A stretch of DNA of 64,000 bases from Halobaculum litoreum (GTDB lineage: Archaea; Halobacteriota; Halobacteria; Halobacteriales; Haloferacaceae), in the NCBI RefSeq assembly GCF_030127125.1, contig NZ_CP126156.1:1798001-1862000 (forward strand). The letters are read 5' to 3'. Under the pieces are notes generated by a model. It was not told where the DNA came from, ran no database searches, and saw nothing but the letters and a program-made list of their open reading frames with translations. Below, piece by piece: positions 4,702-61,972 of the stretch. The position numbers and the translations under genes are program-made. The stretch's first letter is position 1. Every line of letters begins with the position of its first letter.

Positions 4702-4712
4702 TCCGAAAAGCG
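4702..4712 (-). terminator. Short T-run after tRNA-Ser
   Basis: Read on the minus strand, the acceptor end is followed at once by CTTTTCGG. A T4 run directly after a stable RNA gene fits a weak archaeal oligo-T terminator. Confidence 0.4.
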
Positions 4713-4795
4713 CCGAGGGAGAGATTTGAACTCCCGAGTCCGAATGGACAGCAGATTTCGAATCTGCCGCCTTGGCCAGGCTAGGCTACCTCGGC
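4711..4795 (-). tRNA. tRNA-Ser (anticodon CGA)
   Basis: On the minus strand the 85-nt sequence begins GCCGAGG and ends CCTCGGC plus G, forming a perfect 7-bp acceptor stem. The anticodon arm is GCAGA-TTCGAAA-TCTGC, giving anticodon CGA that reads the serine codon UCG. The extra arm is long, as expected for class II tRNA-Ser, and the T arm is GGGAG-TTCAAAT-CTCCC. There is no intron and CCA is not encoded. It lies convergent to the membrane gene ending at 4638. Confidence 0.95.
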
Positions 4796-49787: not shown

Positions 49788-50006
49788 TCAGATCCGCTCG
49801 ATGCGGTCGCCGAGGTCGAACCCGTAGTCGGCGATCGCGTCGCCCAGCCCCTCGGGGAGGCGCTCGTCGTAGCCCACGTCGAGGGTGTCGCGGTCGGCGT
49901 CGGCCGCCACGAACGTCACGGTCGGCAGCGGTTCGACGGCCGACTCGACGAGTACTTCACAGCCGGTACAGCTCATGCCGCTCACGCGGTATCGGTGGCG
50001 TGGCAC
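49788..50006 (-). CDS. Heavy-metal-associated (HMA) domain protein
   Basis: This is a 72-residue single-domain protein. The metal-binding loop YRVSGMSCTGCEVLVESAVE carries the Cys-x2-Cys pair typical of copper chaperones, followed by a ferredoxin-like fold. The start is GTG 50006; a second GTG close by (VSGMSCTG) is possible. A TATA-like AATTATATCC lies ~30 bp upstream on the minus strand, so it is transcribed separately from the permease gene that precedes it. It may supply copper to the nearby haem-copper oxidase, which is inference. Confidence 0.85.
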   Translation of the reverse strand: MPRHRYRVSGMSCTGCEVLVESAVEPLPTVTFVAADADRDTLDVGYDERLPEGLGDAIADYGFDLGDRIERI

Positions 50007-50048
50007 ACGCGAAGCGAGGGGCGGAACGGATATAATTCGGTATCAGTG

Positions 50049-50060
50049 TTCGAAAAAATA
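50049..50060 (-). terminator. T6 terminator after the permease
   Basis: On the minus strand the permease stop is followed after about 22 bases by TATTTTTTCG, a T6 run in GC-rich sequence. This suits an archaeal terminator and separates the HMA gene into its own transcript. Confidence 0.55.
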
Positions 50061-50080
50061 GACGGTCCGGCCCCGCCCGC

Positions 50081-51531
50081 TCAGTCCAACTCGCGGACCC
50101 GCGTCCGGGCGTCGGCGGTCCACGCCGCGAGGTCGTCGCGGCGCTCGCGCAGCCGCCCGGCCGCGATGTCGAGGAGGTCGGTCGTGGCGGCGGCCCCCAC
50201 ACGGACCGTCTCGCTGCCGCCGGCGAGGAACCCCGCGGCCATCGCGGCGACCGTCAGCGCGGTGACGCCGGCCGCCGGGACGCGGAGCGCGACCGTGGCG
50301 AGGCGGCGGGCGCCGTAGGTGACGTACAGTTCCGCGAGGAACACACCCGTGAACACGAGGTTCAGCGGGAGCGTGTACCAGTCGGGCGCGGTGCCGTCGG
50401 TCACCCCCGAGGGCGGGATCAGGCTGGCGAGGTCGAACAGGTAGTGGACGGCGACGCCGGCGACGACGGAGGCGACGAACAGCACGACGAACAGCGTCGC
50501 GGCCATCCGCGTGCCGTAGTACCGCCGGTACGCCGACACGAGCGGCGGGATGATCAGGTCGGCGTAGATGAACGCGAGCACGCCCCCGAAGGCGACGCCG
50601 TTGTTCCACAACACGAGCGCGAACGGGACGTTGCCGACCGAGCAGAGGAACGTGACGACGCCGACGAGCGTCGCGATGACCACGCTGGCGACCACCCACG
50701 TCGGCCCGCTCGCGCCCGCGACCGTGAACAACTCGAGCCAGACCGACCGCGGGACGAACGCCTCGAGGGCGCCCGCGATGAGGAACCCCAGCGCGATGTC
50801 GTGCCAGAGCATGTCCCACTCGCGGATCGCGGTGCGGCCGGCGCGCTTCCACCCCGCCGCCGAGGCGAGGGCGTGTCGCCGGCGCCGCCCCCGGCCGCGG
50901 TGTCGCCGCCGGCGGCCGGACCGTCGCCGTCGGCCTCGGCGGCGGCGACGACGGCGCGCTCGCAGCCGCCGCAACAGAAGTAGCGGGGGCGACCGTCGAC
51001 CGTGGCGACGACGGTGTCGGCGTCGTCGGGGTCGGCCGCCATGTCGCAGGCGGCACACCGGGTGTCGCCGAGCGCGAGCGCGTGCTCGCGAGCCGTCTCG
51101 ACCCACTCCTCGGGGACGTAGCGCCGGACGAGCGCGGCGACGACGACGACGGCGACGAGGCCGCCGACCACGTCGGCGGCGACGAACTGCCAGCCGAGCA
51201 GGATCCACAGCACCAGCCCCAACTCGACGACGAGGTCGGTGCTGGCGAACATGAACGCCAGCGAGGCGGTGAACGACGCCCCCTTCTCGACGAACACGCG
51301 CGCCGTGGACGTCGCCGAGTACGAACAGCTGGAGGAGGCCGCCCCGAGGGCGGTCGCGAGCCCGACCGTCTCCCAGTCGTCGTCGCCGAGGAGGCTCGTC
51401 ATCGCGTCCTCGGAGACGAACTCGCCGACGACGCCGGTGAGGGTGAACCCGAGCACGAGCGCCCACCACGTCTCCCACGCCATCCCGAGGGCGACGCGCA
51501 GCGCCTCGAGGACGGCCGCGAACAGCGCCAC
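50081..51531 (-). CDS. ArsP/YraQ-type permease with embedded YHS/TRASH-like motif, one frameshift
   Basis: This is a ~483-residue polytopic permease of the DUF318/ArsP_1 family. Each half has a membrane bundle: the first includes GFTLTGVVGEFVSEDAM and ATALGAASSSCSYSATSTAR, the second FVPRSVWLELFTVAGASGP and TFLCSVGNVPFALVLWNNGV. Between them (~155-205) lies a small metal-binding domain with CAACDMAADPDD and YFCCGGCERAV, a YHS/TRASH-like zinc or copper module. The frame shifts near base 50870 (a C run one short) in the disordered link after it. The start is ATG 51531. Substrates in the family include arsenicals and unknown metals or metabolites. Confidence 0.82.
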
Positions 51532-51534
51532 GGG

Positions 51535-52368
51535 TCAGACGTAGCCGGGGACGCCGGTGAGCAGCACGCTCGCGGCGGACCACAGGAGCATGAGGCCGAC
51601 GGTGGCAGCGACCCGGTTCCCGTCCCCGGCCCGCTCGGCCGTGAACACCGCCGACAACAGGAGCATCCAGAACGCGTTCATCGTGCCGAACACGACCATC
51701 AGGCCACACAGCGCCCACGTGCAGGTGAAACACGAGCGGAAGTGCGACAGGCCGTCGCGGAGGGCGTTCGCGAGGCGACCCCCGCCGTCGCCGCCCGACG
51801 GCGTCATCGCACAGCAGGTCGCGACGGCGCCGCGCTTGAGACGGGTGAACTGGTAGGCGCCGGCGACGAACAGCACCGCGGGGACGGCGAACCGGCCGGC
51901 GGTCGTCGCGAGGGCGTTGATGTCGACGACCGCCTCGACGGCGAGGGGGATCACCCCCGTCGCGGCCCACGCGAGGCTGTACGCCCCCAGGAACCCGGTG
52001 CCGACGACGAGTTTCGTGACCGCCGACCCGTCGACCGACTCGACGTAGTCGACGCTCCGGGCGAACACGGCGGGGTACATCATCGCGGCCATCATCACCC
52101 CCCACATGAGGAGGTACTCCGCGGCGCCGGCGAGGCCGGCGGCGACGGCGGCCGCCTCCGGGGCGCCGGGGTCGGTCATGGCGAGTCCGGCCGGCATCTG
52201 GGGGAACGGGAGCACCCCGGCGAACAGCATCGTCCAGAGGACGACGATCAGTTTGCCGAGGGTGAGCGCCGTCGGCGAGAGGCCGTCGGCGGTGGTCGTG
52301 CGATCGAGGTACTGGACGACCGGGTCCGGGAGGACCCGGGCGACGTGTGCGACTGTGTCGTGGATCAT
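51535..52368 (-). CDS. DUF2182 integral membrane protein
   Basis: This is a 277-residue protein with seven or eight membrane spans. DUF2182 features are EYLLMWGVMMAAMMYPAVFA in the third helix, then LAGVLPFPQMP-like entry and LSHFRSCFTCTWALCGLMVV with paired Cys and His that suggest metal binding. The family (COG5486) is described as a predicted metal-binding membrane protein. The start is ATG 52368. It ends four bases before the permease ATG and so is likely cotranscribed with it. A metal-handling role is inferred. Confidence 0.85.
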   Translation of the reverse strand: MIHDTVAHVARVLPDPVVQYLDRTTTADGLSPTALTLGKLIVVLWTMLFAGVLPFPQMPAGLAMTDPGAPEAAAVAAGLAGAAEYLLMWGVMMAAMMYPAVFARSVDYVESVDGSAVTKLVVGTGFLGAYSLAWAATGVIPLAVEAVVDINALATTAGRFAVPAVLFVAGAYQFTRLKRGAVATCCAMTPSGGDGGGRLANALRDGLSHFRSCFTCTWALCGLMVVFGTMNAFWMLLLSAVFTAERAGDGNRVAATVGLMLLWSAASVLLTGVPGYV

Positions 52369-52471
52369 TGTGGTCTGTGTGTCGGCTGTCGGTGTGGTCG
52401 GCGAGCGATGCGACTGTCGTGAGCGAGCGGTCGGAACCGCACGGAGGGCGTCCGCGGCGGGCGGGGAGCCG

Positions 52472-52903
52472 TCAGGGGACGCCCAGTCGGTCGTGGCGCC
52501 GATAGAGGTAGCCGGCGCAGGCGGCGAAGACGGTCGCGACGAGCGTCGGGACGCCGGCGACGATGCCGGCGTTGACGCCGGCGAACGCCTTCGTGCCGTA
52601 GGCGACGGCGGCGGGGACGGCCAGACTGGCCCCGAGATACACCCACCAGACGGGCTCCCAGCGGGCGTTCGCCCGGCCGAGGGCGACGCTGTCGCGGACG
52701 AGCGCGTACAGCGCGCCGACGCTCGCGACGACGAGCAGGAACAACACGATCACGGTGAGCGAGCCGGTCAGCACCGACGGGAGCCGGTCGCCAACGACGG
52801 GGATGGCGACGACACCCAGCACCGTCACGAACAGGTAGACGCCGAGCGCGCGCCAGTAGCGCCCGGGGACGGAGCCGGCTCCGTCGGTTCGGTCGGTCGT
52901 CAT
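52472..52903 (-). CDS. Four-helix membrane protein coupled to a beta-propeller
   Basis: This is a 143-residue protein with four membrane spans (~20-38, 45-72, 86-106, 112-130). Between the second and third lies VRDSVALGRANARWEPVWWV. ATG 52903 overlaps the propeller stop (52900) by ATGA. It has no cofactor or substrate motif. It likely works with the propeller protein in a membrane complex, by context. Confidence 0.7.
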   Translation of the reverse strand: MTTDRTDGAGSVPGRYWRALGVYLFVTVLGVVAIPVVGDRLPSVLTGSLTVIVLFLLVVASVGALYALVRDSVALGRANARWEPVWWVYLGASLAVPAAVAYGTKAFAGVNAGIVAGVPTLVATVFAACAGYLYRRHDRLGVP

Positions 52904-53883
52904 CGCTCGATCACGGTGCCGGCGGCGCCGACGGCGACGTCGACCTCGCCGAGCGCGATACCCCGGACGGTCGCCTCGGTGGCCGTCGGGGACGGGGTCC
53001 ACCCCGCCGCCGTGCGTTCGACGACGGTGCCGTTGGCGCCCGCGACCGCGACCCGGCCGTCCCGGACGTCGACGGCGCGGAGCGCGACCGACGCGACGTT
53101 GAGCGGCGTCCAGTTCCGACAGGGGCGGTCGTAGCGGAACACGGTGCCGCCGCCGCCGGCGACGAGCAGGCGGTCGGCGTCGGCGTACACGTCCGCGAAG
53201 TTGACCTGCGCGTTTCGGATGCCGATGTCCTCCCAGCCCTCGCCGGTCTCGGCGAACACGTTCCCGCTGGTGTCGATGGCGACGAAGCCGTCGTCGCCCG
53301 CGGTGATCGCCGGGATCGTCGAGCCGGAGCCGGGCTTGACGACGTCGCCCCACTGCGGGCAGCCGGCCCCGTCCGTCGTCGCGGCCATCACCTCGCCGGA
53401 GCCGTTGGCGATGCGGAGCGTCTCGGCGCCGGCGTCGCCCGAGACGGCGATCCCCTCCCAGGTGCTCGTCTTCTCGCGCGGCGCCGAGTAGTCGGCCTTG
53501 CGCCCGGTCGTCACGTCGTAGTAGCCCAGCGCCCCCGACGAGCCGGCGAACCAGACGCGTTCCCCGTCGTCGGTCGCGGCCGCACAGGTGAGTCCGTAGC
53601 CGCGCGCCTGCGGGCCGTCCGGCACCGCGAGCCGCCACTCGCCGTCCCGCCGGAGCAGCCCGACGCCGCCGGCGCCGACGGCGAACGGCCCCGCGGCCGT
53701 GGCGACGACGTCGTCGAGCGGTTTCTCCGTGGGCACGTCCGCGACGGTCCACTCGGGCGTCGGCGCCGCGTCGGCGGCGTCCCCGTCGGTCGTCGCGTCG
53801 GTCGTGGAGTCGTCGCTGCTCACGCTCGACCCACCTCCGTCGGCGGCGACGGCGCGGACCCGGTCGACGATGGACCCGAGCAT
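52900..53883 (-). CDS. Ycf48-like beta-propeller protein (paralogue of 57882-58864)
   Basis: This is a 327-residue repeat protein of beta-propeller type. Short blades of ~40-45 residues end in hydrophobic strands, for example TEKPLDDVVATAAGPFAVGA, GERVWFAGSSGALGYYDVTT, DDGFVAIDTSGNVFAETGEG and RDGRVAVAGANGTVVERTAA. The blade motif G-x-G-T/V-x-x-x resembles Ycf48/HCF136, a photosystem assembly factor, but here a general protein-binding role is likelier. There is no signal peptide; residues 15-45 are a Ser/Asp/Thr-rich disordered stretch. It starts at ATG 53883, four bases after the regulator stop. Confidence 0.8.
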   Translation of the reverse strand: MLGSIVDRVRAVAADGGGSSVSSDDSTTDATTDGDAADAAPTPEWTVADVPTEKPLDDVVATAAGPFAVGAGGVGLLRRDGEWRLAVPDGPQARGYGLTCAAATDDGERVWFAGSSGALGYYDVTTGRKADYSAPREKTSTWEGIAVSGDAGAETLRIANGSGEVMAATTDGAGCPQWGDVVKPGSGSTIPAITAGDDGFVAIDTSGNVFAETGEGWEDIGIRNAQVNFADVYADADRLLVAGGGGTVFRYDRPCRNWTPLNVASVALRAVDVRDGRVAVAGANGTVVERTAAGWTPSPTATEATVRGIALGEVDVAVGAAGTVIER

Positions 53884-53887
53884 CGAC

Positions 53888-54268
53888 TCACGCGCCCCCC
53901 TCCGCGTCCGCGGCGCCCCCGAACAGACACTGCGCCTGCCAGCGGATGTGTGCGTGGAGCCGCCGGGCCGTCTCCTCGGTGAGCCGGTAGCCGTTCGTCC
54001 GCCCGTCGATCGGTCGCACGTCGACGTAGCCGTCTTCGACCAGGTCCGAGAGGTTCCGGTAGAACCGCCCGTGTTTCACGTCGGTCGGGCACTGCGCCCG
54101 GACCGCCTCCTGGATCTCGCGTCCGGAGGGGCGGGACTCGTCCAACTGCGACAGGACGAACAGGATGTTCAGTTTGATTCCGCTCAGTTCGGTCAACGGA
54201 GCGGGGTCGAAGGTGGTCGGTCTGCGGACGGTGCGCCTCGGTCCGAAGTCGGTGGTGGTGGTGTACAT
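53888..54268 (-). CDS. PadR-like winged-helix regulator
   Basis: This is a 126-residue DNA-binding protein. The winged helix reads TELSGIKLNILFVLSQLDES, then PSGREIQEAVRAQCPTDVKH, RFYRNLSDLVEDGYVDVRPI and GRTNGYRLTEETARRLHAHI. This is the PadR-family layout with a short C-terminal helix for dimerisation. ATG 54268 is chosen. It sits in the middle of the operon, so it could autoregulate it. A candidate operator is the ATACGAACACCGTGTAT region near 54942-54958. Confidence 0.82.
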   Translation of the reverse strand: MYTTTTDFGPRRTVRRPTTFDPAPLTELSGIKLNILFVLSQLDESRPSGREIQEAVRAQCPTDVKHGRFYRNLSDLVEDGYVDVRPIDGRTNGYRLTEETARRLHAHIRWQAQCLFGGAADAEGGA

Positions 54269-54357
54269 CGGTGTGGCTTCGCTATCTGGGGTAGTGGTGT
54301 CGTGGAGTCGTCCGTACGCCGGCGGGCGACGCCGGCGTGTTCGCGGTCGCGCCGCGC

Positions 54358-54672
54358 TCAGGGGCCGAAGTTGGCCCTGTGGTCGCGATACAGCACCGCG
54401 GCGACGAACAGGAACGGGAGCAGCGCCAGCACGGTGATCCCGAACGTCAACTGGAGCACCGGCGAGAACGACGTCGTCGAGACGAGGTGGACGATGGCGC
54501 CCGCGGCGCCGGCGACGAACAGCCCGATGCTGGCGATGGCCGACAGGAAGCTCGCCTTCCGGGTCGCCCACGGAAGGTTGTCCGAGCGGCGGAGCATCTT
54601 CAGCAGGATCGTCACCGGCGGGATCGCCAGCGCCTGCAGTTGGAGCATGGTGAGGGCGACGTCCGTGCTCAC
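54358..54672 (-). CDS. Three-helix membrane protein coupled to small peptides
   Basis: This is a 104-residue protein with three membrane spans (~3-18, 34-52, 62-86), and YRDHRANFGP at the end. GTG 54672 overlaps the stop of the 46-residue peptide gene (GTGA). No family is recognised. It lies second to last before the regulator in the operon's upstream half. Confidence 0.68.
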   Translation of the reverse strand: MSTDVALTMLQLQALAIPPVTILLKMLRRSDNLPWATRKASFLSAIASIGLFVAGAAGAIVHLVSTTSFSPVLQLTFGITVLALLPFLFVAAVLYRDHRANFGP

Positions 54673-54809
54673 GACGGTGCCTCCCCGGGGGGCGACGGCT
54701 CGGCGTGTGGGACGGCCGCGACGACGACCGGCGGGCTGGTGGTCGACAGCCCGGCGGCGCCGGCGGCGAGTGGAGTGCGACGGCAACTGGAGTCGGTGGC
54801 CTGTGTCAT
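54669..54809 (-). CDS. 46-residue peptide, translationally coupled
   Basis: ATG 54809 opens a 46-residue frame (MTQATDSSCRRTPLAAGAAG... ending PPGEAPS) to TGA 54669. Its start overlaps the stop of the 35-residue frame (ATGA) and its own stop overlaps the next GTG (GTGA). Coupling on both sides argues it is translated. The product is Ala/Pro/Ser-rich with one Cys and looks disordered. Confidence 0.5.
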   Translation of the reverse strand: MTQATDSSCRRTPLAAGAAGLSTTSPPVVVAAVPHAEPSPPGEAPS

Positions 54810-54913
54810 GGTCGGTCCTCGGCCCGGCGGGTCGACGGGACGGCCCGGAACGCGAAGCGGCTGCTTCGCGTCCGGGAGTCGTCCGCGGAAGCGTCGTCCC
54901 GGCCGGCGGCCAT
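54806..54913 (-). CDS. 35-residue leader peptide with internal hairpin
   Basis: ATG 54913 opens a 35-residue frame (MAAGRDDASADDSRTRSSRF... ending RRAEDRP) to TGA 54806. The TATA-like TTTAATATA at 54937-54945 lies ~27 bp upstream, so transcription should start at this ATG, leaderless. Bases 54851-54870 inside it form a perfect 8-bp hairpin. This layout is typical of a leader that controls downstream expression. Confidence 0.45.
   Translation of the reverse strand: MAAGRDDASADDSRTRSSRFAFRAVPSTRRAEDRP
54851..54870. promoter_or_regulatory. Perfect 8-bp hairpin inside the leader peptide frame
   Basis: CGCGAAGC-GGCT-GCTTCGCG forms an uninterrupted eight-pair stem with a four-base loop. It lies about 45 nt into the predicted transcript, between start and stop of the 35-residue frame. 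It could act as an attenuator or translation control element. Confidence 0.5.
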
Positions 54914-54936
54914 TGACCGATACGACCGGAGATGGT

Positions 54937-54958
54937 TTAATATACGAACACCGTGTAT
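54937..54958 (-). promoter_or_regulatory. Promoter of the propeller/permease operon with ATAC...GTAT repeat
   Basis: The plus strand reads TTTAATATACGAACACCGTG, then TAT. On the minus strand TATATTAAA serves as TATA box ~27 bp before ATG 54913. ATAC and GTAT ends flank GAACACCGT, an imperfect inverted repeat that could bind the PadR-like regulator of the operon. Confidence 0.5.
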
Positions 54959-54971
54959 TTTAGTATATTTT

Positions 54972-56576
54972 TCAATCGCGACGACCGTTCGACTGCCCGA
55001 CGTGCCCGCCGTCGTCGGGGAGGGCCTCGTCGGTCCACTCGCGGGTGCGAGCGTCGCCGAGGTCCCACACGTCGCCGCCGACGCGGGGGCCGCCCAGCGC
55101 CGAGGCGACCGTGTTCGCGAGCCAGACGAGCTGGCCGCCGCCGAGGAGGTACGCCCCGACGGTGCTCACCCGCTGTGCGGTCGCGAACGTCGCCGGGTAC
55201 GTCGCCGTCCGGCGCGGGAGGCCGTCGAGGCCGAGGAACAACAGGGGGAGGAACGTCACGAGGACGCCGACGACCGAGCTCCAGAAGTGGACGCGCGCGA
55301 GGAACGGGTCGTACATGCGGCCCGTCAGGAACGGGAACCAGTAGTAGGCGGCCGCGAACGCGCCGAACACCGTGAGTCCGACGAGCATCAGGTGGAAGTG
55401 GCCGACCACGTAGAACGTGTCGTGGAGCACGATGTCGACCGGGATGGACGCGAGGAACACGCCCGTGACGCCGCCGAGCACGAACGTCGCGACCGCGCCG
55501 AGACAGAACAGCATCGGCGCGACGAGGCGGAGCCGGCCGTTCCACAGCGTCGCGATCCAGTTGAACGTCTTGACGGCTGAGGGCACCCCGATCGCGAGCG
55601 TCACGGCCATGAACGACGCCTTGAGTCGCGGGTCGAGCCCCGTGGTGAACATGTGGTGGGCCCACACGCCGAACGAGAGCGTCCCGACCGACAGCGTGGA
55701 GTAGACGACGGCGTTGCGGCCGAACAGCTCCCGCCCGGCGAACTTCGGGAGGACGTGGCTGATCACGCCCATCGCCGGCAGCGCGAGCACGTACACCTCC
55801 GGGTGCCCCCAGAACCAGAACAGGTGTTGCCACAGCATCGGCCCGCCGCCGTCGACGGCGAAGTACGTGGTGCCGACGGCGCGGTCGAGGAGCAACATCA
55901 CCAGCGCCGACCCGAGGATCGGGAACGCGAACATCGCCAGCCCCGCGGCGACGAGCATCGACCACGTGAACAAATCGAGGCGGTCCCACGTGACCGCGGG
56001 CGCGCGCTCGGCGACCACCGTCACGACGACGTTGATCGACGCGAGGGTCGTCCCGACGCCCGAGAGGTGCAGCCCCAACAGCGTGAGGTCGACCGCCGGG
56101 TTCGTCGCCTGCGTCGACAGCGGCGGGTACAGCGTCCACCCGAGCGCGACGGGCGCGAGCGCCTCGACGCCCGGGAGCACCAGCCCGAGCGTGCCGTTGC
56201 GGACGAGCAGGATCGACGGCGGGAGCAGCCAGAGGGCGGTCGCGTTGGCCCGCGGGAACGCCATCTCGTCGGCGCCGATCAGCGGCGGGACGACGAGGTT
56301 CGCCAGCCCGAAGAACCCGGGGGTGGCGAACAGGAACAGCATCGTCAGCCCGTGCGTGGTGAACAGTTCGCCGTACGTGGCGGGCCCGACGAGGGACGCC
56401 GACGGCGTCACCAGCGCCGTCCGGATCGCCATCGCGTCGGCGGCGCCCCACAGCCCCGCGACCGTCGCGAACAGGAGGTACAGCGTCCCGATGCGGCGGT
56501 GGTTCACCGTCGTCAGCCAGCCGGCGAGCCCCGCGGGGACGAGCCGGCGCGGGCGGCGCGGGAGCGGCGGGCTCAC
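54972..56576 (-). CDS. Haem-copper oxidase subunit I (A1 type, orphan)
   Basis: This 534-residue protein has 12 membrane helices and all the expected ligands: His for low-spin haem in TTHGLTMLFLFATPGFFG, CuB His and cross-linking Tyr in WFWGHPEVYVLALPAMG, the His pair in FGVWAHHMFTTGLD, and haem ligands in HDTFYVVGHFHLMLVG. Glu in GHPEVY and Lys in GVPSAVKTFNWIATLW mark an A1-type enzyme. It would reduce oxygen and pump protons. GTG 56576 overlaps the upstream stop. No subunit II gene with a CuA motif lies beside it, so its electron donor is unclear. Confidence 0.93.
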   Translation of the reverse strand: MSPPLPRRPRRLVPAGLAGWLTTVNHRRIGTLYLLFATVAGLWGAADAMAIRTALVTPSASLVGPATYGELFTTHGLTMLFLFATPGFFGLANLVVPPLIGADEMAFPRANATALWLLPPSILLVRNGTLGLVLPGVEALAPVALGWTLYPPLSTQATNPAVDLTLLGLHLSGVGTTLASINVVVTVVAERAPAVTWDRLDLFTWSMLVAAGLAMFAFPILGSALVMLLLDRAVGTTYFAVDGGGPMLWQHLFWFWGHPEVYVLALPAMGVISHVLPKFAGRELFGRNAVVYSTLSVGTLSFGVWAHHMFTTGLDPRLKASFMAVTLAIGVPSAVKTFNWIATLWNGRLRLVAPMLFCLGAVATFVLGGVTGVFLASIPVDIVLHDTFYVVGHFHLMLVGLTVFGAFAAAYYWFPFLTGRMYDPFLARVHFWSSVVGVLVTFLPLLFLGLDGLPRRTATYPATFATAQRVSTVGAYLLGGGQLVWLANTVASALGGPRVGGDVWDLGDARTREWTDEALPDDGGHVGQSNGRRD

Positions 56577-57885
56577 TCGGCGACCCCCGGGCCACCCGCC
56601 CCACGGCGCGGCGGATCCCGTGCCGGTACAGTTCGTACACGCCGAGGGCCGCGACGAAGGCGGCGAGTCGGAACGCGAACCCCGGCGCCAGCACGTACGC
56701 GACGGCGACGGGCGGGACCGCGACCGCCGGCGCGGCGACCCGCACGCGGCGGTACGCCGCCGCCACGTCCGGCCCGAGCGCGTCGTCGACGAGCCGCCTG
56801 CGCGCGGGGTCGGCGACGCGTCGCAGCCCGTACAGGCCGAACGCGACCGCCCCGGCGACGACCGTCGGCGCCGGCTCGACGAGCGCCAGCGGCGCGGCCA
56901 CGCCCGCCGCGAGTCCGGCCGCGAACGTCGCCCGCGGGGAGACGGCGTCGAGCAGCGCCTCCCCGAGCGCCGGCGCGACGGCGGCGGCGAGCGCCTCCGC
57001 GGCCAGCACCAGCGCGACGGCGGCCGCGGGGCCGGCGTCGAGCCACGCCAGCCGCTCGGCCGGCGCCCGGACCGCGAGGACGAGCGCGGGCGCGAACGCG
57101 ACGAACGCCGCGGCCGGGAGCGCGCCGGCGACGTCCGCGACGAGGGCGGTCTTCGCCGCGCGCGGCGCCGTCCGGAGCCGACCGACGGTCCCCCGGGGCG
57201 TATCGTCCGGCGTCGCGAGCGACGGCCGCCGCTCGCCGCGGCGGTCGCCGGTCGCGCCGTCGAGCGCGACCGAGACGACCGTCACCGCCAGCCCCGCGGC
57301 GACGGCGCCCGCGAGCAGCACCGCCGCGGCGACCGCGAGTCGGTCCGCCGCCACCGCCACGGCGAACGCGAGGGCCAACGGGCCGGCGCGGGCGAGGCGG
57401 ACGGTCGGCGCCGCCGCGGTCGCCCGTGCGAGCGCCCCGTCGGTCCCGACCGCCGCCCGGAGCGCGCGGCCGCCGGCGTCGACGCCGGCCGTCCGCCAGA
57501 CGACCACGAGCGGCGTCGCGAGCAGCACCCACGCCCACGGGGGGACGACGCGCCCGTCCGGTCCCCCGATCCCGGGGGCGAGCAGCCACACCAGCAGTCC
57601 GAAGGCGGCCACGAGCGCGAGCGGGGTGACCGCGGGGAACGACCCGCTGAGGGCGGTGTCGTCCGCCGAGACCGCCGGGTACACCAGCGGGACGCCGAGC
57701 GCGAGGACGCCGAAGGCCCCGAGGGCGGCCGGGCCGCCGCCGAGCGAGACGAGGTAGGCGGGCGCGTACCGGAGCGCGACGCCGACGGCGCCGGTGTAGC
57801 CGACGAGCGCGAGCGCGAGCGTCGCCGGCTCCGTACCGAGGCGGTCGAGCGCGCCCGCGACGCGGGCGAGGGGATCGCGGGTCAC
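56573..57885 (-). CDS. MFS-like polytopic membrane protein, one frameshift
   Basis: This is a ~437-residue protein with about 12 hydrophobic spans, very rich in Ala and Val. It starts at GTG 57885 (VTRDPLARVAGALDRLG). The two halves are joined by a charged loop (DRRGERRPSLATPDDTPRGT), as in major facilitator transporters, but the usual MFS loop motif is not evident. The frame ends at TGA 56573 only if one base is restored near 56600 (AVG then GGPGVAE). It overlaps genes on both sides. The substrate and even the transporter role are inferred from the topology. Confidence 0.65.
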
Positions 57886-58864
57886 GGGTCGTCCGGGCGG
57901 GGGCGCTCGACGATCGTGCCCGACTCGCCCACGGCGACCGGCGGGTACTCGCCCGCGCCGAGCGTCGCGCCGTGGAGCGCGCCCGACGCCCGGAGGGGTC
58001 CCGCCGCCAGCCGTCCGGCGTGAGCTGGTAGATGACGCCGGACTCGCCGACCGCGAGCCCGTCGCGTTTGCGCCGGTCGATCGCGTGGAGGTCGGCCGTG
58101 CCGACCTCGATGGCCGTCCAGTCGAACCCGTTGTACCGGAAGATCCGACCCTCCTGGGCGGCGACGGCGGCGCGCTCCTCGCCGAACGGGGAGACGTCGA
58201 ACAGCGTGTCGCCGGTGGCGTCGACGCCGATCCGCCGCCACTCCTCCCGGTCGACGGTCTTGAACACCTCGCCCGCGGAGTCGACGACGTAGCCGAAGCC
58301 GTTGCCGCCGAAGGCGACCGCTGTCGCCGTCGTCCCGCTGCCGGGTTCGAGCGGGTCGTCCCAGTCGACGGCGCCCCCGCCCCGGTACTTGCCCCGGAGG
58401 AGTTCGCCCGAGCCGTTGAGGAGGAACACCCACTCCTCGCCGGCGACGCCGAGGACGCCGACGGCCTCCCACGAGCTGGTCTTCCCGAGCGGCGCCGAGA
58501 GGTCCCGGAGGTCGCGCGAGACGACGTCGTAGCGGCCGACGGCGCCGGAGTCGCCCGCCGTCCACAGCGCGCGGCCGTCGTCGGTGGCGGCGACGTCGAA
58601 CAGCGCGTCGCCGCGGTCGCCGGGGCCGTGTTTCGAGACGGTCGCCCAGCCGACGTGGCAGCGGGCGACGATCCGCCCGGACTCGCCGACCGCGTACGGG
58701 CCGTCACGGCTGGGCGCGACGCCGTACAACGACTGCATCGTCGGGGACTCGACGGGCGTCCAGCGACTCGTGTCGCCGTCGCCGCCGACACAGCCGGCGA
58801 GCGCGACGGCGCCCGCCGAGGCGACGGCGCCGAGCGCCTCGCGCCGCGTCGGGGCGGCCCTCAC
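57882..58864 (-). CDS. Lipoprotein Ycf48-like beta-propeller (paralogue of 52900-53883), one frameshift
   Basis: This ~327-residue protein has a Tat-like signal (TRREALGAVASAGAVALAGC) with lipobox Cys ~25, so the propeller is outside the membrane, unlike its paralogue. Blades include GRALWTAGDSGAVGRYDVVS, GNGFGYVVDSAGEVFKTVDR and RDGLAVGESGVIYQLTPDGW. The frame shifts at the G4 run 57995-57998; restoring one base gives RASGALHGATLGAGEYPPVA and the end RPRPDDP. GTG 58864 overlaps the small peptide stop. It may help assemble the adjoining oxidase, by analogy with Ycf48. Confidence 0.78.
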
Positions 58865-59052
58865 GCCCCCACCTCCCCGCGGGGCGGCGCCGGCCGCGGC
58901 GGCCGTGCCGCCGTGGCCTCGGTCGCCCGCGGTCGGTCGGCCCCGCGGTCGGCGCGCGCGGAGTGGTCGGCGGTGCTGTGCGGCGGTCGTGACGTGTCGT
59001 GTGTGTGCATCGTGTGGATCCGTGGTCGGTCGGGTGCGGACGGGGCGGTCAT
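58861..59052 (-). CDS. 63-residue coupled peptide
   Basis: ATG 59052 opens a 63-residue frame (starting MTAPSAPDRPRIHTMHTHDT) that ends at TGA 58861. Its start overlaps the upstream stop (ATGA) and its stop overlaps the propeller start (GTGA), so it is held on both sides by the operon. The product is rich in Pro, Ala, Arg and His (several HT/TH pairs near the N-terminus). It has no helix or signal. Translation is likely; function unknown. Confidence 0.55.
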   Translation of the reverse strand: MTAPSAPDRPRIHTMHTHDTSRPPHSTADHSARADRGADRPRATEATAARPPRPAPPRGEVGA

Positions 59053-60248
59053 CGCGACGCGCCGAAGGGGCCGGGTGCGGCCGAGCGCTGGACGACGGTC
59101 GAGAGCCGGACGACGTGCGCGAACAGCACCGCGAACGGCGCGAACGCGGCCGCCAGCGAGGCGCTGACGAGCAGGAGGAGGGGGAACGCGTGCACCACCG
59201 GCGGGTAGCCGCTGGCGTAGATCATGACGACCAGCGAGGCGGCGATCAAGGCGACGGCGCCGGTGTACGCCAGCCGCCGGGAGAGCCGCGCGAGCGAGCG
59301 CTGGATGTACAGCGTCGAGAAGTACTGGCCGGCCACCTCCAGCGTGGCGAGCGCCTCCTCGCAGTCGGCGAGCGCCCGGGCGACGGTCGGCGACGGGTCG
59401 CGGCGCTCGCGCAGCCGGCGCGAGGTCGCGAGGCGGCCGCCGACCCGCTCGTCGAGCATCGGCGACAGGGCGTCGAACAGGTCGTCGGCCGGCCGACACC
59501 GCTCGGTCAGGCGAGCGACGAGGTCGGCGACGGCGACGCCGTGGTCGCGGATCGGGCCGTCGCGCCCGTCGGTCGCGGCGACGACGGCCGCCGCCCGGTC
59601 GTCGGCGACGGCGACCAGCCCCTGCGTGAACGGCACCGGGTCGGCGCCGGCGTCGGCGACGACGTCGTCGAGCGCCGCCGCCGCCGCGCGGAACTCGTCG
59701 ATCTCCTCGAGCCGCTCGCGGTGGGTCCCGGGCGTCCCCGTGAGCCACGTCAACGCGAGTTGGTTGACCCCGATCACCACCGGGACGAACGAGAACAGCC
59801 CGGCGATGATCGTCGAGAACATCGTCGTGACGAAGTCGCTCTCGCGGACGCCGACGACGCCCGCGACGCCCAACCCGAGCGTGCCGACGAACACCACCGC
59901 CACGAAGCCGACGACGACGTGGGTGCGGTCGCCGGCGACGAGCAGCCAGCGGTTGGCGTCGTCGCGCGCCTCGCCGAACAGGATCTCGCGGAAGCCGGCG
60001 AGCAGCCACGACACCAGCCGCGCGCCGACGCGCGTCGCCAGCGTCGCGACGACGACCAGCAGTCGCGCGAGCACCCCGAGGAGCGTCGCCAGGGCGTCGA
60101 TCACCTCGTCGCCGTCGTCCGGCGCGGTGCGGTCGACGCGCGCCGTCACGCGGTCGACCGCGTCGGGCGCGCCGTCGGCCCGCGCGACGGGCGCCCCGTC
60201 GTCGTCGGGGGCGGCACCGTCCCCGGGGTCGGGCGCGTCGCGGCTCAC
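59049..60248 (-). CDS. Membrane protein with four helices and coiled cytoplasmic domain
   Basis: This 399-residue protein starts at GTG 60248 (VSRDAPDPGDGAAPDDDG), followed by an acidic stretch and an amphipathic region. Two helices lie around residues 115-165 (HVVVGFVAVVFVGTLGLGVA; FVTTMFSTIIAGLFSFVPVV) and two near the C-terminus (LAYTGAVALIAASLVVMIYA; AFPLLLLVSASLAAAFAPFA). Between them is a ~170-residue soluble helical domain (LEEIDEFRAAAAALDDVVAD). No family is recognised. Its stop and start overlap both neighbours. Confidence 0.7.
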   Translation of the reverse strand: MSRDAPDPGDGAAPDDDGAPVARADGAPDAVDRVTARVDRTAPDDGDEVIDALATLLGVLARLLVVVATLATRVGARLVSWLLAGFREILFGEARDDANRWLLVAGDRTHVVVGFVAVVFVGTLGLGVAGVVGVRESDFVTTMFSTIIAGLFSFVPVVIGVNQLALTWLTGTPGTHRERLEEIDEFRAAAAALDDVVADAGADPVPFTQGLVAVADDRAAAVVAATDGRDGPIRDHGVAVADLVARLTERCRPADDLFDALSPMLDERVGGRLATSRRLRERRDPSPTVARALADCEEALATLEVAGQYFSTLYIQRSLARLSRRLAYTGAVALIAASLVVMIYASGYPPVVHAFPLLLLVSASLAAAFAPFAVLFAHVVRLSTVVQRSAAPGPFGASR

Positions 60249-61306
60249 AGCACCCCTCCGGGGAGCAGGCCGCCGCGGGACCACTCGACGAGCAGGAACG
60301 TGACGACGCCCAACAGCGCGAGCAGCCCCGCGACGAGCGTCAGGATCCGGCCCCGGGTCCGTCGGAGTTGGGCCCAGTCGTCCGGGTGGTAGCCGAGCGA
60401 CCACAGCGAGACGACCGCCGCCAGCTCGATGGCGACGAGGTTCAGCCCGTTGACGGCGAGCGCGCCGACGACGAGCCGGGGCTCCCACCACACGAGGGCG
60501 GCGCCGGCGACGCCGACCGGCGGCACCAGCGCCGAGGCGAGCATCACCTGCGTCACCACGGTCGACCCGTCGGTCGAGAGGCCGACGGCGCCCGCGACGC
60601 CGGCGCCGACGGCGACGACGAGCAGCAGTATCGCCGAGGAGCCGAGGCTGCTCGCGGAGACGACCGCGCTCGCGTCGAAGACGCCGTCGGCGAACGGCGC
60701 GAACCGGACCACGAGCGCGAACCCGGTCGCGCTGGCGACGCCGACGGCGGTGCCAAGCACCTGCATCGCCAGCCCGTCGCGGGCGAGCGTCTCGTCCCCG
60801 GTGACGGTGCCGACGGCGGCGGCCATGGCGGGCGCGAACAGCGGCGCGATCACCATCGCGCCGAGCACGACCGTCAGCGAGTCGAGGAGGAAGCCCGCGG
60901 TCGCGAGCGTCGCCCCGATCGCCGTCAACAGACAGTAGATGCGCCGCGCGGGGAGCACGTCGCGCGCGGTCGAGCGCAGTTCGTCGCGGGCGATCCGCCT
61001 GCGGTCCGTGGGGGCGACCTCGCCCTCGTCCTCGCGGAGGTGGTTGAAGCGGTCGGAGACGACCGCCTCGGCGTCCTGCACGACGGTGTAGGTGTCGTCG
61101 GTGACGCCGAGGTCGTCGAGCCGGCGCAACACCGGCTCGACCGCGTTGGCGGGGACCGGCAGGGTGACCACGGTCGACCCGTCCGCGCCGGACTCGTCCG
61201 TGACGACGTAGTCGAGCTCCTCCTCGCGCAGCGCCACGAGCACCGGGTCGAGGGTCTCCGGGCGCGGGGCGAGGATCTCGACGAGTCGCATGTTCCGCTC
61301 GTGCAT
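60245..61306 (-). CDS. DUF389 (TIGR00341 family) membrane protein
   Basis: This 353-residue protein has an N-terminal ACT-like domain (LDPVLVALREEELDYVVTDE; ~1-80) and a DUF389 membrane part with six or seven helices, including VLGAMVIAPLFAPAMAAAVG and STVVTQVMLASALVPPVGVA. The family is widespread and uncharacterised. The start could be ATG 61306 or the ATG at 61291 (MRLVEILAPRPE); the latter fits family length better. It precedes and overlaps the four-helix gene. Confidence 0.85.
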   Translation of the reverse strand: MHERNMRLVEILAPRPETLDPVLVALREEELDYVVTDESGADGSTVVTLPVPANAVEPVLRRLDDLGVTDDTYTVVQDAEAVVSDRFNHLREDEGEVAPTDRRRIARDELRSTARDVLPARRIYCLLTAIGATLATAGFLLDSLTVVLGAMVIAPLFAPAMAAAVGTVTGDETLARDGLAMQVLGTAVGVASATGFALVVRFAPFADGVFDASAVVSASSLGSSAILLLVVAVGAGVAGAVGLSTDGSTVVTQVMLASALVPPVGVAGAALVWWEPRLVVGALAVNGLNLVAIELAAVVSLWSLGYHPDDWAQLRRTRGRILTLVAGLLALLGVVTFLLVEWSRGGLLPGGVL

Positions 61307-61315
61307 CCCGCCGAC

Positions 61316-61588
61316 TCACCACCACCGCCCGCGGAGCGCCGCGGCGTCGGCGTCGTCGTCGAACGCGGCCGTGTACCGGTCGGCGATCGCCTCCCAGATG
61401 CGCTCGCCGCGCCCGCCGGGGTCCCCCCGGCAGTCGGTGACGCACCGGGCGACCACGCCGTCGCCGACGCGGTGAAATCGGAGGTGGCCGAAACAGTCCG
61501 GACAGCGCCACTCCGCGTGGCCGTCCATCCAGTCGACGGCGTGGCCCGCGCGACGCAGCCGCTCGGCGAGCGCGTACCACACCGTCAC
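61316..61588 (-). CDS. Zinc-ribbon-like small protein
   Basis: This is a 90-residue protein with Cys-x2-Cys (RCPDCFGHLRFHRVG) and a second pair (VARCVTDCRGD) that could bind zinc. A Trp-rich start (VTVWYALAERLRR) and end (AALRGRWW) frame it. GTG 61588 overlaps the upstream stop by four bases (GTGA). It is coupled to the gene above. Function unknown. Confidence 0.65.
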   Translation of the reverse strand: MTVWYALAERLRRAGHAVDWMDGHAEWRCPDCFGHLRFHRVGDGVVARCVTDCRGDPGGRGERIWEAIADRYTAAFDDDADAAALRGRWW

Positions 61589-61878
61589 GTCCCAGACGGC
61601 TCCCCGCCGCCGGCGCGTTTGAGGCGGCGGATCGCCAGCGCGGCGGCGCGGTCGATCGCGTCGTCGGCGGGGCCGCTCGCGCGGCGACTCCGCCGGAAGT
61701 GGACCGTGAGCGCGGTGGCCGACGAACAGCGCTCGCCGTTCGTCAGCTCGCCCGTGGGCGCGACGCCGGGCGGGCAGTCGTCGACGGGGGCCCGCTCGGC
61801 CCGCCCCCGGTCGTCGTAGTGGAGTTCCTCGGACAGCGATGCACCGGTCGTCGGACAGAACGCGTTGCTACCTTTCAT
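61585..61878 (-). CDS. Unknown 97-residue protein
   Basis: This 97-residue protein has paired Cys in NAFCPTTGASL, DDCPPGVAPTG and GERCSSATALT that may bind metal. The C-terminal part is helical and basic (AIDRAAALAIRRLKRAGG). The start is ATG 61878, with two TATA-like elements 95-120 bp upstream. No family is recognised. It heads the coupled minus-strand series ending at the oxidase. Confidence 0.6.
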   Translation of the reverse strand: MKGSNAFCPTTGASLSEELHYDDRGRAERAPVDDCPPGVAPTGELTNGERCSSATALTVHFRRSRRASGPADDAIDRAAALAIRRLKRAGGGEPSGT

Positions 61879-61972
61879 GGGTCTCGTCGAGCAGTCGCTC
61901 GCGGGGTGCCGTCGTCCGTGCTGCCGCGCGTCGGGCCCCCGGCCTCGTCCGGACCGACGGGTGTGTCGCCAT
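61868..61972 (-). CDS. Possible 34-residue upstream frame
   Basis: ATG 61972 opens a 34-residue frame ending at TAG 61868, overlapping the start of the next gene. A TATA-like CTATATTTC centred ~27 bp upstream would make it leaderless, as with the 35-residue leader at 54806-54913. The frame is Arg-rich and could be chance. Confidence 0.25.
   Translation of the reverse strand: MATHPSVRTRPGARRAAARTTAPRERLLDETHER

Follow-up and report, generated by a model that had tools for sequence, protein, structure and literature searches.

Why would a haloarchaeon keep a gene for subunit I of a haem-copper oxidase (cox1) in a tight run with genes for two propeller proteins, several membrane proteins and members of copper families? 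The question is raised by a stretch of 64,000 nucleotides of Halobaculum litoreum (the window; C1:1798001-1862000 of the 3.04-Mb haloarchaeal assembly G000, completeness 86%), in which such a cluster fills positions 61878-49788 on the minus strand. A first-pass annotation, made from the letters of the window, had described twin operons here and proposed that paralogous propellers inside and outside the membrane serve assembly or metal loading of the oxidase. The genes it named lie where it had placed them, closely packed on one strand with short overlaps or gaps between them, and Pfam confirms the COX1, DUF389, ArsP_1, PpoB2 and HMA assignments. Its DUF2182 protein belongs to PF09948 (PpoB2), which we take to be the current name of that family. 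Read 5' to 3', the order is a zinc-ribbon gene (zn188, in two frames), DUF389, TM4A, the lipoprotein propeller propA, an MFS-type gene and cox1, followed after a 58-base AT-rich gap by TM3B, a PadR-like regulator, the second propeller propB, TM4B, PpoB2, an ArsP_1 permease with a Cys-rich insert and HMA. Comparison across 40 genomes establishes a conserved haloarchaeal cluster of about ten neighbouring genes, a grouping that is more than chance. We lean, with reserve, towards reading it as a set dedicated to maturing one accessory haem-copper oxidase subunit I and supplying it with copper.

Relatives were collected with three kinds of bait, the propeller, cox1 and TM4A; the presence of a bait gene carries no weight in loci retrieved with it. 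The propeller search covered 148 genomes of the family and found relatives in 52; of 40 propeller loci of 17–20 kb that were read, 5 carried the cluster, 1 had PadR alone and 34 had no other cluster gene. Searches with cox1 and the MFS-type protein over 392 Halobacteriales genomes found the two side by side in further genomes, and 20 more loci were fetched: 15 cluster loci, two of them repeats, and 5 loci around other cox1 paralogues as controls (L160-L164). In a TM4A search of the 392 genomes, 40 genomes scored at least 423 bits; the next score was 330, from a further copy in one of these 40, and the rest were at most 281. All 40 genomes of this TM4A class were read, in sets of 22, 16 and 2 loci. 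L145, L151, L181 and L182 match L113, L112, L111 and the L114 contig at 100% of their DNA and were left out of the genome count as repeats. L034 and L114/L182 are two contigs of a single genome (G070), and the 22-locus count omits L114 and the five controls.

The genes for cox1, the MFS-type protein, the permease and propA stand together in 22/22, 16/16 and 2/2 loci, that is in 40/40 genomes, so the co-occurrence that the first-pass annotation had anticipated is borne out. TM4A is present in 21/22, 16/16 and 2/2 loci; the one exception, L034, is located at the end of a contig, and L182 of the same genome has the gene. Nearly as constant, over the same three sets, are DUF389 (20/22, 15/16 and 2/2), TM3B (18/22, 16/16 and 2/2), PadR (17/22, 16/16 and 2/2) and the zinc-ribbon gene (16/22, 16/16 and 2/2); L036 ends within TM4A, and DUF389 and zn188 are not visible there. 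In the last two loci a propeller match runs into the end of the stretch. Over the other 38 loci the counts are: propB in 20/22 and 13/16 (33/38, longer stretches included), PpoB2 in 14/22 and 9/16 (23/38) and HMA in 13/22 and 2/16 (15/38). TM4B was seen in 5/22 loci, with further ones at about 30% identity. The five control loci around other cox1 paralogues all lack the MFS-type gene, the permease, the propellers and TM4A, and two of them have a DUF389 relative.

In most of the 22 loci the genes are collinear, in one direction and in one order, which sets aside twin operons as the basic unit. Usually the zinc-ribbon gene is followed by DUF389, TM4A, sometimes PpoB2, propA, sometimes HMA, the permease, the MFS-type gene and cox1; then come, in some loci, a small membrane protein, a TrkA-C protein and a Kef-type exchanger, and finally PadR and propB, with TM3B before or after this pair. 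A permease at the far end, as in the window, is shared only with L032, the locus of the sister genome G052. Twelve loci (L168-L179) are built of two divergent units, one from the zinc ribbon to propA and the other from the permease to propB. These were considered as a second class without propB, PpoB2 and HMA, an idea we dropped as a stretch-end effect, since longer stretches contain propB in 12/12 and PpoB2 in 8/12.

Some neighbours come and go. A Kef-type exchanger and TrkA-C lie between cox1 and PadR in L036, L112, L150, L152, L153 and L180, mostly with the small membrane protein. A small membrane protein of 119–148 residues also adjoins the cox1 paralogue in all five controls, and the sequences look alike by eye. 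Beside PadR, on the propB side, a glutamate/leucine-dehydrogenase-like gene occurs in 17/40 cluster genomes (L036, L150, L180, L187-L198, L202 and L203; three of the proteins, plus that of L036, were checked by Pfam).

The spread of the cluster is patchy: 40/392 genomes carry it, among them 2 of the 8 genomes of the window's genus that the TM4A search lists. In a phylum-wide draw the TM4A class appeared in 5/294 genomes, all five within Halobacteriales. One cluster copy (L113) is on a record titled plasmid. Nonetheless, the core genes and nearly the same order span several families, in which cox1 identity falls to about 50%. TM4A is the best marker of the cluster. The MFS-type gene was rejected as a sole marker, since some relative of it exists in 352/392 genomes, whereas TM4A separates cleanly at high score. 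The wider TM4A family occurs in 365/392 Halobacteriales genomes, often several times in each, mostly as distant members outside the cluster.

What kind of oxidase subunit does the cluster encode? The window protein matches COX1 over its whole length, and its nearest PDB chains are the mitochondrial and bacterial COX1 of aa3-type oxidases. With these it shares the haem a, haem a3 and three CuB His ligands and the cross-link Tyr, kept in 38/38 and 2/2 cluster rows, as well as the K-channel Lys, kept in the same rows and in 13/14 distinct other paralogues. It differs from them in having no neighbouring subunit II gene and in the loss of the D-channel in part of the family, two features that go beyond the first-pass annotation. 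The D-channel Glu (in the motif HPEVY) is lost in 12/38 rows, where Leu replaces it in ten and Val and Gln in one each, and in 2/2 (Leu), or 14/40 in all, and the acid at the channel entrance in 8/38 and 1/2 rows (9/40). Misalignment is unlikely because the motif is contiguous with a CuB His. All 14 distinct other paralogues keep both residues. The window protein itself retains the Glu (E260), as do 25 other rows (26/40), and has Glu (E104) in place of the entrance Asp. Given the loss in 14/40, some cluster oxidases may not pump normally. D- and K-channel variants of archaeal family A COX1 have been described earlier (PMC8239418). Against the NCBIfam model TIGR02891 (CtaD_CoxA) the window, L148 and L173 proteins score 608.0, 627.6 and 473.9 bits, all below the cut-off of 670.75.

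For the tree of cox1 sequences, ten paralogue rows were dropped (five refetched cluster members, one duplicate and four identical rows); they are included in the raw motif tallies, and 14 distinct rows remain. Eleven rows with Leu or Gln in place of the D-channel Glu form one supported group, and the row with Val (Halospeciosus flavus) stands apart. The midpoint-rooted tree, which carries long-branch warnings, suggests at least two losses of the Glu. We rejected a single clade of cluster cox1 genes: 13/14 other paralogue rows fall on one side of a branch (96/94) and the long row p_L076 falls elsewhere, while a strict count required 2 changes and 0% of the bootstrap trees gave 1, with a warning about long branches meeting.

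Within 10 kb of 21 cluster cox1 genes we found no match to subunit II (COX2), against 35/66 for the other A-type cox1 genes of the same genomes. The remaining 31/66 also lack cox2 within that distance. Unlinked cox1 genes are thus not unusual in these genomes, and subunit II may come from elsewhere.

Three of the partners belong to copper families or resemble them. PpoB2 matches PF09948 at 110.1 bits over a cut-off of 28.7. In Marinomonas, PpoB2 (COG5486) transfers copper to a tyrosinase (PMC2855505). The likeness lies in the Pfam family and in a gene placed beside a copper enzyme; the difference is that here the neighbour is a haem-copper oxidase and that PpoB2 was not found in 15/38 loci. 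The HMA protein keeps the Met and both Cys of its MxCxxC motif in 13/13 rows. The permease, scanned in two relatives, has as its best NCBI model the SO_0444 Cu/Zn efflux transporter (NF033936; 1.4e-22 and 80.4 bits for L148, 2.2e-19 and 69.8 bits for L032). The model takes its name from SO_0444, which is needed for growth with copper or zinc (PMC3219624). The cluster permease shares the ArsP_1 family with this transporter, yet it falls far below the model's cut-off and has a Cys-rich insert between its halves; Cys 70, 163, 187, 191 and 306 (alignment numbering) are invariant in 37/37 rows.

Could the MFS-type protein also carry copper? CcoA, an MFS copper importer for the cbb3 oxidase, has conserved Met/His metal motifs. 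The cluster protein would likewise be an MFS protein serving an oxidase; in contrast, none of its Cys, His or Met positions reaches 90% conservation in 36 rows, and its relative in L148 matches MFS_1 at 2.5e-7 and 30.4 bits, under the cut-off of 33.4. A CcoA-like importer was rejected for want of conserved metal ligands and, as far as its residues tell, nothing evident marks the protein as a copper carrier.

That the two propellers are paralogues, as had been claimed, is borne out by an identity of 38%. A propeller-family profile run against PDB sequences gave HCF136 (3.3e-6) and Ycf48 (5.6e-5) as its top two matches, which supports a remote relationship of the cluster propellers to Ycf48/HCF136 at the level of sequence profiles. 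The AlphaFold2 model of propB has a mean pLDDT (predicted local distance difference test) of 86.4 and 27 strands, which fits seven blades. A fold search with it placed Ycf48 in the first ten PDB matches, alongside designed and WD40 propellers; it also returned many unrelated WD40 proteins, and this search does not tell Ycf48 from other seven-bladed propellers. Pfam scans of the cluster proteins gave no Ycf48-type match.

As to placement inside and outside the membrane, the lipobox Cys of propA is kept in 35/37 rows and propB shows no signal by eye; together with the second propeller in 33/38 loci, this makes the proposed inside/outside pair an apt description. Ycf48 itself carries a lipid anchor as a lipoprotein (PMC8038367), and on newly made D1 it overlies the metal-ligand residues (PMC10403576). 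The cluster resembles the Ycf48/HCF136 system in the propeller fold, in the lipidation expected of propA and in a neighbouring membrane metalloenzyme that needs metal loading. It differs in that the similarity is remote, the Ycf48-type Pfam match is missing and the host has no photosystem. The propeller family is much expanded in some genomes, with 14 matches in G066 and, in G070, four adjacent matches inside a single open frame of 1336 residues. Such expanded-propeller loci (L037-L041, L043, L068 and L069) have no other cluster gene, L040 excepted.

Of the smaller proteins, the zinc-ribbon protein keeps four Cys in 31/31 rows, and the PadR-like regulator has a single late Cys in 31/32 rows that could possibly act as a metal or redox sensor. 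Its assignment as PadR is borderline by Pfam. TM4A has no Cys, His or Met conserved at 90%. A bestrophin-like identity is not claimed for it, as the bestrophin homologues listed had a TM-score of about 0.2 or less against a low-confidence model.

How might these parts work together? On the reading we lean towards, the permease with its Cys insert, PpoB2 and HMA would transport Cu(I) or pass it on to fill CuB, the only copper site of subunit I. Lipidated propA would cap the outer face of freshly made subunit I until it has received its metal and haem, in much the way that Ycf48 sits over the Mn site of D1, and propB would serve the cytosolic face. TM4A, DUF389 and TM3B may act as partners in the membrane or as small subunits, and expression may be under the control of the PadR protein. 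The finished oxidase could work on its own or use a subunit II from another locus; where a lineage lacks the D-channel, protons would arrive by the K-channel, with little or no pumping. The recovery of propB and PpoB2 on the longer stretches of L168-L179 raises the odds of this reading. The copper-type partners fit the assembly or metal-loading role of the first-pass annotation; the helper roles, the direction in which copper moves and the electron donor are what we infer from the cluster.

Several observations weigh against a maturation and copper-supply set. In L165-L167 propB and PpoB2 were not found even with 10 kb more, and the counts for PpoB2 and HMA mean that part of the copper set is dispensable or encoded elsewhere. 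The permease relatives reach 80.4 and 69.8 bits where NF033936 has a cut-off of 300, and kinship to an efflux protein fits copper removal as well as supply. The MFS-type protein, as seen above, offers no conserved metal ligands. The TM4A model is weak (pLDDT 66.7, with no structure match under an E-value of 0.001). Propellers bind many things, and most members of this family lie away from any oxidase (the 34/40 loci without another cluster gene). Finally, the dehydrogenase-like gene beside PadR is left unexplained.

The copper families would also suit an island for copper (or copper/zinc) tolerance, in which the permease, HMA and PpoB2 export or buffer the metal and the oxidase oxidises Cu(I) or replaces metal-poisoned oxidases. 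The Cu/Zn efflux model nearest to the permease, the copper kinship of HMA and PpoB2, and the patchy spread with one copy on a plasmid-titled record all agree with it. We nevertheless consider tolerance unlikely: cox1, propA and the permease are always present and PpoB2 and HMA are not, and no copper P-type ATPase or multicopper oxidase was recognised in the gene lists, although no profile search was aimed at them. The oxidase could instead be the point of the cluster without being a respiratory pump. As an oxygen-scavenging or redox-safety enzyme it would make the cluster a protection from oxygen or reactive species, with copper handling secondary. The loss of the D-channel Glu and entrance acid from proteins that keep the catalytic centre and K-channel speaks for this, as do the lack of a subunit II match near the 21 cluster cox1 genes and the Kef and TrkA-C genes of some loci. 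But the window copy and 25 other rows keep the Glu, and a cox1 gene without cox2 nearby is common in these genomes, so that a safety oxidase, too, strikes us as improbable.

Might the genes share no function at all? Unrelated genes for membrane and stress proteins, kept as a loose island by transfer between haloarchaea, would account for a patchy distribution (40/392 genomes, and 2 of the 8 listed from the window's genus) and for glutamate-dehydrogenase-like and ion-exchanger genes that come and go. Such an island is hard to square with core genes kept in nearly the same order across several families whose cox1 has diverged to about 50% identity, and we give it very little credence. At the other end, the cluster could define a distinct oxygen reductase class: an A-family subunit I that has no CuA subunit of its own and in some lineages lacks a D-channel, with its own copper-delivery proteins and a Ycf48-type propeller guarding the empty metal site. 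We regard this as doubtful; if true, such a class would amount to a photosystem-type assembly logic outside photosynthesis.

Each recognisable gene of the cluster belongs to a known or partly known family, and what appears to be new is the set, an oxidase with its own propellers and copper helpers. No description of it was found in the literature searched, a collection thin in subscription papers. The insertion of CuB into haem-copper oxidases remains poorly understood, and few studies have addressed it in archaea. With probable helpers bundled with one oxidase gene in culturable archaea, such as Haladaptatus salinisoli (L112) and Halospeciosus flavus (L111), each is open to deletion and testing. 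The variants that keep the catalytic centre and the K-channel but not the D-channel bear on how far pumping and catalysis are separable in the A-family, and a tie between a Ycf48-like propeller and an oxidase would point to the guarding of metal sites as a general principle of assembly.

Table 1. Features of the cluster in the window, in the direction of transcription; identities are to proteins of the sister genome G052 unless stated (TM, transmembrane; ORF, open reading frame; aa, amino acids).
Feature	Positions	Strand	Evidence
zn188, first part, zinc-ribbon-like, first cluster gene	61585..61878	-	89% to residues 1-94 of the 188-aa G052 gene
zn188, second part, CxxC + CxxxC	61316..61588	-	80% to residues 95-188 in G052
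DUF389 membrane protein	60245..61306	-	PF04087, 3.4e-23
TM4A, about four TM helices (by eye) around a helical domain	59049..60248	-	no Pfam family
63-residue ORF, probably not a gene	58861..59052	-	no protein match in L032, L113, L114
propA, lipoprotein propeller, RR signal, LAGC lipobox	57885..58864	-	83-84% to G052, two frames
MFS-type membrane protein	56577..57885	-	68% to G052
cox1, A-family haem-copper oxidase subunit I	54972..56576	-	PF00115, 9e-140
AT-rich gap	54914..54971	-	64% AT
35-residue ORF	54806..54913	-	62% over 34 aa in the sister genome (L032)
46-residue ORF, probably not a gene	54669..54809	-	no protein match in L032, L113, L114
TM3B, small three-helix membrane protein	54358..54672	-	92% to G052
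PadR-like regulator, conserved late Cys	53888..54268	-	PF03551, 7e-6, 26.4 bits, cut-off 27 (borderline)
propB, propeller, no evident signal peptide	52900..53883	-	predicted propeller fold
TM4B, small four-helix membrane protein	52472..52903	-	87% to G052
PpoB2/COG5486 membrane copper chaperone family	51535..52368	-	PF09948, 1.7e-31
ArsP_1 permease with YHS/TRASH-like Cys insert	50081..51531	-	ArsP_1 in both halves, 2.2e-32 and 5e-33
HMA protein, MxCxxC copper-chaperone type	49788..50006	-	PF00403, 3.9e-9

Three small open reading frames had been counted among the parts of the cluster (Table 1). Those of 46 and 63 residues were rejected as parts, with no protein match at an E-value of 1e-3 in the three loci searched; the 35-residue frame has its counterpart in the sister genome and none in L113 or L114. 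The gap between the two units of the window, set in a region of 72% GC, is possibly the promoter of the second. The gap upstream of the HMA gene also has AT-rich stretches, at just 42% AT overall.

Judged against intact relatives, four genes of the window have frame breaks. That in zn188 lies near 61600 and leaves 97 + 90 aa in place of a single gene; the others are in propA near 57998, at the 3' end of the MFS-type gene near 56584, and in the permease between 50923 and 50863. On its second contig the same assembly holds one stretch of about 10 kb twice (G000:C2:20001-30000 and 238500-248500; L183 and L184), at 99.85% identity and resembling an unmerged circular overlap. Most of the differences between the two copies are short gaps (9 gaps spanning 10 bases, against 5 mismatches). 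Because this gap rate is comparable to that of the four frame breaks, the breaks are probably assembly errors, as many others across the assembly may be, and decay of the cluster in the window is not claimed. Apart from the cluster, the window holds a tRNA-Ser(cga) gene at 4710-4795, the sole tRNA gene found in it.

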